Assembly (NCBI GenBank): GCA_027604705.1
Contig: JADHYV010000048.1
Location: 111,747 to 175,746 of the forward strand
DNA from: Allomyces arbusculus
Taxonomy: Eukaryota > Blastocladiomycota > Blastocladiomycetes > Blastocladiales > Blastocladiaceae
Direction of reading: 5' to 3'
DNA: 64,000 nucleotides
Part shown: positions 32,897 through 34,575 of the stretch, piece by piece
How the letters are laid out: every line of letters begins with the position of its first letter
Position numbering within the stretch: the stretch's first letter is position 1
The notes under the pieces: generated by a model
The model's input: the letters and a program-made list of their open reading frames with translations, nothing else
Told to the model about the DNA's origin: nothing
Database searches by the model: none
Program-made: the position numbers and the translations under genes

Positions 32897-34575
32897 TCAT
32901 GCCGCAAACATCTTGTGGTTGATCGGGAACGACAGGCCGTCGCTACACACCCGTCGATCAGATCAGTCCACGCCCAAATCAAGTACTGAGCCGCCAAACG
33001 CACCCGACGGGCGACGTGACCGGCACCCACCACAGCGCGACCTTACTCCCGAGCACTTGCACCAGATTTGCGCGCCACCCAAGATCAAACGGGTTCACGC
33101 GCCGCGCATTCGGGTCGGCCGCGTTGACGACCGCGTACCGCTGCTCTTCCATGTTCTCGATGGTCGTCATGTTGCGCAGGACCAAACTACACATCGATCG
33201 TTGCATGAACATCCAGCACACACGAATCAAAGCGACGCGACGGGGCCGTACCTGGCATGAAACGCGAAAAAGCCCACGAGAATCAACCCGAACAGGGTGG
33301 CCACGAGCGTGACCGACAAGACGTGTGCGGCGGCCGCGTACTCATCGTCGGTGCTCATTTGCAGTGCAGGTAGGCACAATGGCGCGGTGCAGATCAGGAT
33401 CGTGAGGGAATACAGCGCCGTGTAGAAGACAAAGAGCAGGAAGTGCTTGTAGTTGTAGAACCCGACGCAGTTGTTGATCCACGGCTGATAGAGAAGGTGG
33501 AGGATGTGGAGAGCGATAAGATAAGGGAGGATGGGAATGGAATGGGTTGAAGAGCGGAGGTAGGGCGTACGCAGTGGCTAGGGAGGGGAAATGGTGGTCA
33601 GGGTCGTCGTGAGCGGGCGGGTAAGTGGGAGAGAGGAGGCGGCAGCGTACTGGTCCATCTTCAAGACGCATTTCCTGCACGTTCTACCTACGAACAGCGC
33701 AACGGAACACGGTAAGCGCGCGAAGACCGCGCAGAGGGAGCCGACCCATACAATGATGCGTGCGGTCGGGTTTGTTGACTTGGCACTTGCGACAATATCG
33801 TCTTTCGCCGTTCCCCTTGACTGGCCAAACCAAAACCGATCAGCAAAACGAAGGTTCAGCACCAGATTGACCAAAACGACCACTTACTTGTAATAGGCTA
33901 TAAATTGCATTTCGAACCACGCCAAGTCCAAAAAAAGGAGCCAAGGGTCAGCACCTCCAGTCCACCACGCCCCATCCCCCGCAAGAACGTGAGGAGCCAA
34001 GAATGCACCACATTGTCGACGGCTACCAGAGGCACTCGGTCCGCCGCGTCCCCGTCATCCAGTGCGGCCAGCGCCGGCATGGGCGTCGGCACGACCACCG
34101 TCGTCCCCGACGACGACGCCGGGGAAGCGGCCATATCGTGCAATACCACATCGCTCGCACTGACGCTCCTCCCCAGCGCACCCGGCGACTGCAGGCCCGG
34201 CGGCGACCCCGGATCCGTCATGACCACGCGGTAGTAGGCGAACATGGCGAGCGTGGCGAGAATCGCGGCAATGATGGTTTCGGCCGTGTGCCCGGCGGTG
34301 CCGACGACTTCGATGGACAGCGGACGAAGCGCGTAGGCGACCGCGTAAAGCGGCCAGCCGATGAGGACGGTCACGGCTACGTAGGGGACGCGACGCGCGA
34401 TAGAGTCGAACGCAGCCTCGATGCGCGCGGCAAGAGACGGTGGGGACGCGATGATGGAGCGGGATGATGGCGGGGTTGGCGGGTGCGGCGGTATCGGTGG
34501 TCGTGCCGTTGCTGCATCGGGGCTGGTCGTCATTGTGGGTGCCACTGGCGGCAGCGGAGGCGCGGCGAGAGCCAT
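32897..34575 (-). CDS. DHHC palmitoyltransferase with eight exons, two of them microexons
   Basis: S-acyltransferase that attaches palmitate to cysteines of membrane proteins. Exons (minus strand): 33955-34575, 33888-33897, 33752-33820, 33651-33687, 33571-33577, 33252-33484, 33004-33186, 32897-32942; 1,206 nt and 401 residues, with every phase closing. Membrane segments lie at about residues 64-83 and 98-117, followed by DPG at 121. The Cys-rich domain starts around residue 208 with [20 protein letters not shown], then [20 protein letters not shown], with the catalytic DHHC at 245-248, then [15 protein letters not shown]. Two more membrane segments and a TTIE motif follow, and the end GDGLSFPINHKMFAA suits the family. 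Exon 2 is 10 nt and exon 5 is 7 nt. Pombe/Pfa3-type versus other subfamilies was not resolved. Confidence 0.9.
33571..33577 (-). other. 7-nt microexon encoding part of the DHHC motif
   Basis: On the minus strand, CCCTAG precedes and GTACGC follows the seven bases CCACTGC. Joined to the CA that ends the previous exon, they read CAC CAC TGC, supplying His-His-Cys after the Asp. Without this exon the catalytic Cys is absent and the frame shifts. Confidence 0.85.
33888..33897 (-). other. 10-nt microexon in the DHHC gene
   Basis: On the minus strand, TTTATAG precedes and GTAAGT follows the ten bases CCTATTACAA. They encode P-I-T and the first base of I, joining GLE to [12 protein letters not shown]. 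This gives the P-x-T-[VI]-K-x-[ND]-G lead-in common in DHHC proteins. If the previous exon were read through, it would stop at the TAG. Confidence 0.75.

Follow-up and report, generated by a model that had tools for sequence, protein, structure and literature searches.

A gene for a predicted palmitoyltransferase in the early-diverging fungus Allomyces arbusculus contains a 7-nt exon, CCACTGC, that supplies the catalytic cysteine of the DHHC active-site motif. This is a clear-cut example, at the sequence level, of a catalytic residue provided by an exon of this size. The exon lies between two closely spaced short introns, and it is very probably an obligatory micro-exon, spliced constitutively. 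The window considered here, that is, the whole stretch of 64,000 nt that was analysed, belongs to a contig of 175,746 bp in the 25.9-Mb A. arbusculus genome.

Gene structure and reading frame

When its letters were located and translated, the gene was found on the minus strand of the window, in eight exons (Table 1). All of the letters quoted in the preliminary description, which gave no strand, are present on that strand. ATGGACCA ends at 33651 and the first GTACGC starts at 33650; the string CCCTAG/CCACTGC/GTACGC sets the 7-nt exon at 33577-33571, and TATCAG/CCGTGG places the start of the next exon at 33484, slightly beyond the range first given. As had been proposed, the seven nucleotides complete one His codon and encode His-Cys, converting GAC-CA and CCG-TGG into Asp-His-His-Cys-Pro-Trp. 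The chain of 10-, 69-, 37-, 7- and 233-nt exons translates through. The 10-nt exon (CCTATTACAA) corresponds to PITIK in the deposited protein and is not extendable in its frame, because an in-frame TAG directly precedes it. A micro-exon is understood here as an internal coding exon no longer than 15 or 30 nt that is required for the frame and flanked by GT-AG introns, and both the 7-nt and the 10-nt exon are of this kind. The observation of a 7-nt exon in the active site is confirmed.

When exon 1 is taken to end at 34009, the model is letter-for-letter identical to the deposited 383-aa protein of A. arbusculus, and the public annotation therefore already contains both of the micro-exons claimed for the gene. 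The deposited proteins are themselves predictions, possibly based on homology, so that this identity is not an independent proof. The 3' end of exon 1 is uncertain. Judged from the protein letters, the exon ends at three different places in three deposited Allomyces models, and the four candidate donors of intron 1 score 1.4, -5.4, -0.9 and 3.6 bits, all at or below the 8th percentile. The donor at 34026 (GTAGCC; exon end 34027, 377 aa) was used first and then dropped, because the stretch VPLVA/VPLVP continues in Blastocladiella and Catenaria and the deposited model extends further.

The 377-aa version (exon 1 to 34027) matches the Pfam DHHC family (PF01529) over residues 191-316 with 141.4 bits, against a cut-off of 28.7, which bears out the initial identification of a DHHC palmitoyltransferase. 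The score falls to 38.5 bits once this version of the protein is cut before the 7-nt exon. Only with that exon does the predicted product have an intact Asp-His-His-Cys and surrounding Cys and His residues, from CRKC onward; its Cys-rich core presumably includes the residues that bind zinc. The best solved relative of the 377-aa version is human DHHC20 (6bml, E 1.1e-43), the named homologues are called zdhhc15 or palmitoyltransferase for Vac8p, and the TTIE motif is present within TTIENME. By these matches and the motif, the gene is predicted to be an intact DHHC palmitoyltransferase of the Pfa3/ZDHHC2-15-20 type.

The neighbours in Table 1 come mostly from a Pfam scan of 10 ORFs of the window (1-64000), among which the ORF at 23073-25487 matched no Pfam family.

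Table 1. Features of the palmitoyltransferase gene, its neighbours in the window and the paralogous locus on contig C14
Feature	Position	Strand	Remarks
Exon 1	34009..34575	-	567 nt; start codon 34575-34573; 3' end uncertain
Candidate ends of exon 1	34009; 34012; 34027	-	Deposited A. arbusculus model; letters of the A. macrogynus protein; inner alternative
10-nt exon	33888..33897	-	Pro-Ile-Thr and first base of Ile
69-nt exon	33752..33820	-	Cys-rich domain, first Cys/His cluster
37-nt exon	33651..33687	-	Cys-containing stretch; last bases CA
Intron 4	33578..33650	-	73 nt; GTACGC...CCCTAG
7-nt exon	33571..33577	-	CCACTGC; last base of His codon, then His-Cys of DHHC
Intron 5	33485..33570	-	86 nt; GTACGC...TATCAG; 78% pyrimidine
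233-nt exon	33252..33484	-	Starts with Pro-Trp; hydrophobic stretches downstream of DHHC motif
183-nt exon	33004..33186	-	Carries TTIENME
Last exon	32897..32942	-	Stop codon 32899-32897
RNA polymerase large-subunit end	13-1722		Pfam
Pseudouridine synthase	27117-28856		Pfam
Kinesin	31964-32485		Pfam
6-phosphogluconolactonase/glucosamine isomerase type	35759-37297		Pfam
Pyridine nucleotide oxidoreductase	37396-38976		Pfam
Bud6/Aip3-like	39122-41191		Pfam
HSP70	47612-49120		Pfam; upstream exons to 49791
tRNA-Ser	50315-50398		
Class II tRNA synthetase	53603-55069		Pfam
eIF5-like	57141-58352		Pfam
ZDHHC16-like gene (L004, contig C14; also in L086)	1073-1886 of L004		Three successive exons (8, 9 and 9 nt) spanning the DHHC motif

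Recovery of the micro-exons and the role of chance

The exons were recovered with a purpose-built aligner of proteins to genomic DNA, which permits GT-AG introns and exons as short as roughly one codon and has donor and acceptor preferences set by hand. Five references were used, namely the deposited protein of A. arbusculus itself (P0001) and four homologues, from Blastocladiella (P0005), Catenaria (P0013), Paraphysoderma (P0009) and Basidiobolus (P0008). The 7-nt exon was recovered with all five. The 10-nt exon was recovered whole with P0001 and P0005, and 7 nt of it appeared where the P0008 alignment ends; with P0009 and P0013, in which the linker is different, the alignment passed it by, using poor donors.

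The interval of 166 nt that separates the 37-nt exon from the 233-nt exon was subjected to 400 dinucleotide shuffles, with six bases fixed at each end and a 130-aa piece of P0005 as the reference. No shuffle of this interval reached the real score and none restored DHHC, while an internal exon of 15 nt or less of some kind appeared in three of the 400. The 7-nt exon is not due to chance. A reading of the region as a stwintron, or nested twin intron, was also rejected: the coding sequence between the two introns of a stwintron is not kept, and here the 7 nt between the introns are needed for both DHHC and the frame.

Splice signals

Ordinary splice sites of the genome were taken from a survey in which housekeeping references were aligned to the assembly. 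This gave 77 loci. From these, 34 genes with a score of 250 or more were retained, 14 loci scored lower and were dropped, and 29 were merged with retained genes as duplicates. Two separate genes (L015 and L043) were wrongly absorbed in this step; once they are restored the internal exons number 91, not 88, still with three of 15 nt or less, and GTACG starts 53 of 114 introns. The survey genes contain 120 introns in 27,495 coding nt, or 4.4 per kb; PMC8476143 reports 1.30 per kb for A. macrogynus, a value obtained with different gene sets and methods. The 5' splice sites of the survey mostly read GTACG(T/C) or GTGCGT.

Among the 110 survey introns of up to 300 nt (median length 78.5), the donors include 51 GTACG, 21 GTGCG and two GTAAG, and the acceptors 77 TAG and 30 CAG. 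GTACGC starts 17 of the 110 and is among the three commonest donors, and both GTACGC donors flanking the 7-nt exon are therefore ordinary here. Relative to the survey introns, the donor of intron 4 lies at the 38th percentile and its acceptor at the 62nd; the donor of intron 5 is below average, at the 18th percentile, with the acceptor at the 31st; and the acceptor before the 10-nt exon is at the 100th. These scores are built on introns from the same aligner, whose hand-set preferences lean the consensus.

Introns 4 and 5 contain neither an internal GT nor an internal AG, and none of the 110 survey introns shares both absences. From the end of the 37-nt exon to the start of the 233-nt exon, GT occurs just twice, at the two donors, and AG three times, at the two acceptors and across the boundary of exon base 33651 and intron base 33650. 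The two introns are also rich in pyrimidines, at the 96th and 100th percentiles of the survey introns, respectively. Shuffling gives a GT- and AG-free intron in 4.8% of cases for intron 4 and 18.5% for intron 5, and because composition alone can yield such introns at these rates, the absence is suggestive only. CTGAC is found 20 nt from the 3' end of intron 4, and CTTAT occurs 32 and 37 nt from the end of intron 5. The introns around the micro-exons of the paralogue described below are not GT- and AG-free and pyrimidine-rich in this way. The idea of special micro-exon splice signals was rejected, since the sites are ordinary and decoy-free, pyrimidine-rich introns are absent from the paralogue.

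Other tiny exons in the genome

A Pfam search of the genome gave at least 11 DHHC matches in at least eight distinct loci. Exons of 15 nt or less in the Cys-rich core are found in two of eight loci, the window gene and the ZDHHC16-like gene L004. For the other six, a 1.6-kb stretch per locus was aligned to 27 DHHC cores, and the top two alignments for every locus show no core exon of 15 nt or less. In L004, the order is AAAAT, GGACCACC, ACTGCCCAT, GGTTGAATA and ACTGCGTCGG, each separated from the next by an intron, and the exons of 8, 9 and 9 nt were recovered with all seven references. The gene is listed as 100% identical to the deposited A. arbusculus GGF31_001662 over the whole 309-aa query. 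Of the four donors around its micro-exons, three are GTACGC and one is GTACGT. The micro-exons of L004 interrupt the sequence at other codon positions than those of the window gene, and the interruptions thus look independent. This run of three is the most unusual part of the findings, and it offers a stricter test of an intron-defining spliceosome on exons below its footprint.

Tiny exons are not limited to this family. Actin (L052/L087, contig C60) has a 10-nt internal exon, GDD-A/PRA/VFPS, that completes an Ala codon and is flanked by introns of 428 and 94 nt. It was the only one accepted of the three internal exons of 15 nt or less (4, 6 and 10 nt) among the 88 in the 34 survey genes. The 6-nt exon, which would fall in the P-loop of a RAB-like gene (L011, C162), lies in a weak stretch and was not counted. 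The 4-nt exon in L055, flanked by introns of 621 and 343 nt, was taken to be an end-of-alignment artefact, as was an exon of 1 nt close to where one L001 alignment ends. A 12-nt exon in L075 was dropped for its poor alignment (score 156). Tiny exons of this kind are thus infrequent in the A. arbusculus genome without being confined to the window gene. The preliminary description called exons this short rare in fungi; the count given here covers this one genome.

Annotation of Allomyces DHHC genes

It had been suggested that exons this short are hard for annotation pipelines. For the window gene itself this does not hold: the deposited models of A. arbusculus, A. macrogynus (AMAG_06618) and A. 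javanicus all read MDHHCPW. It does hold for part of the wider set of six deposited Allomyces DHHC models considered, in which the motif is kept in four (P0001, P0002, P0003 and P0240) and fails in two, AMAG_19761 of A. macrogynus (P0004) and the ZDHHC16-like model of A. javanicus (P0241). AMAG_19761 reads TECLC/HCPWINN, which would fit exon 1 joined directly to the 7-nt exon with the 10-, 69- and 37-nt exons omitted, and this suggests that the 7-nt exon is a separate exon in A. macrogynus too. In P0241, DHHC is wholly absent. Both failing models are probably annotation errors at micro-exons, although AMAG_19761 could represent a real alternative transcript. Allomyces models can thus silently lose the active site, which matters when the loss of an enzyme is read from annotated genomes.

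Mis-spliced products and alternative explanations

All five of the mis-spliced products that were considered end early. Skipping of the 7-nt exon gives the frameshift that had been foreseen, with a 257-aa product (MDHRGSTT...) that stops at 33396, leaving 144 nt to the next exon junction. Retention of intron 4, with or without intron 5, gives 251 aa, the stop being the in-frame TAG of the intron 4 acceptor. Retention of intron 5 gives 288 aa in which DHHC is present, with Pro-Trp and the later part of the domain missing, and skipping of the 10-nt exon gives 220 aa.

These products invite the idea, raised in the preliminary description, that splicing acts as an on/off control, in which an inactive, frameshifted product would be made at some life stage when the 7-nt exon is skipped or either intron 4 or intron 5 is retained. 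The position of the stop on skipping makes message decay plausible, the donor downstream of the exon is weak, the AMAG_19761 model might represent another isoform, and a glucose-dependent micro-exon switch is reported for Xlr2 of Trichoderma (PMC11121469). The sites themselves speak against such a switch. They are ordinary, the near acceptor, before the 7-nt exon, outscores the far acceptor that would be used on skipping (6.4 against 5.3 bits), and introns 4 and 5 offer no decoy GT or AG, so that the balance leans towards inclusion of the exon. Skipping would also require an intron of 166 nt, at the long end for this genome, where 100 of the 120 survey introns do not exceed this length, and the three consecutive micro-exons of the paralogue point to a general trait of these genes and not a special device. 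A regulated switch is therefore improbable. The broader proposal that inclusion of the 7-nt exon and of the 8-, 9- and 9-nt exons of the ZDHHC16-like gene serves as on/off controls of S-acylation, the latter being the more sensitive, with skipped or retained messages being destroyed, is distinctly improbable.

The origin of the two introns raises a separate possibility, namely that they are introners, recent copies of a mobile intron family, with the micro-exon as the remnant between two insertions. Introns are dense in the genome, several have GTACGC donors and their positions vary between paralogues, as might be expected from such a family. However, GTACGC is a common survey donor and not a family mark, and a search of the whole 25.9-Mb genome with introns 4 and 5, at E up to 10, gave each intron itself as its sole match; the search passes over simple repeats and very common words and so leaves their uniqueness unproven. 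These self-matches disfavour a young mobile family, and an introner origin is highly improbable. That the exons are remnants of a decayed gene, or the result of misassembly, and that no functional mRNA is made is extremely unlikely: the end of exon 1 is indeed poorly defined, but the 383-aa frame is open, the Cys-rich core and TTIE motif are intact and the same core is found in deposited relatives from three Allomyces species.

Splicing of the 7-nt exon

The preferred reading is thus an exon that is required for the frame and the catalytic Cys and that is most likely included in the RNA constitutively. Short fungal introns are generally regarded as being recognised across the intron. Introns 4 (73 nt) and 5 (86 nt) would probably be recognised by such intron definition and removed successively, since a 7-nt exon leaves no room for factors at its two splice sites at once. 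The pyrimidine-rich introns, free of decoy GT and AG, may guide the choice of splice sites. As for their history, the simplest account is that the introns came to sit near each other in a motif that could not change, the micro-exon being a result of this and probably not a regulatory cassette.

Comparison with known micro-exons

Among open-licence full texts, none was found that names both Allomyces and microexon, and of the four that mention both a micro-exon and a palmitoyltransferase none, by title and start of abstract, deals with a case of this sort. Fungal micro-exons down to 1 nt, some of them in conserved motifs, are already published.

In plants, micro-exons of up to 15 nt are constitutive and flanked by introns with U-rich motifs, and they are reported to be conserved across land plants (PMC4674806, PMC8831610), whereas the Allomyces exon has been compared at the protein level. 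For the 1-nt exon of Arabidopsis APC11, intron definition with successive removal of the introns has been proposed (PMC4674806). The 4-nt exon of human MPC1 resembles the 7-nt exon of Allomyces in having a length that is not a multiple of three and a pyrimidine-rich upstream region, and it is constitutive, as seems likely for the Allomyces exon; unlike the latter, it has long flanking introns and depends on exon definition (PMC9929638).

Other parallels are fungal. Xlr2 of Trichoderma virens also contains a micro-exon, but one that is regulated by glucose (PMC11121469), whereas the DNA of the Allomyces gene gives no sign of regulation. The 1-nt exon of Fusarium CYP621A, like the 7-nt exon of Allomyces, is required for the frame within a conserved motif, and it is often overlooked by annotation (PMC12940212). 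It is smaller and is backed by RNA reads (PMC12940212), while the Allomyces exon is known from DNA and protein models. The P450 genes of Phanerochaete chrysosporium share with the Allomyces gene tiny exons, some of them in an invariant motif, and short introns (PMC12940212, PMC1184071). Their shortest exon is 6 bp (PMC1184071), and one of 8 nt lies in the AGHETT motif of the I-helix (PMC12940212). The P450 micro-exons have been proposed to promote alternative splicing (PMC1184071), of which the DNA of the Allomyces gene shows no sign. The two cases belong to different enzyme families and phyla, and it is in Allomyces that the exon supplies the catalytic Cys of DHHC and that a paralogue carries three such exons in a row.
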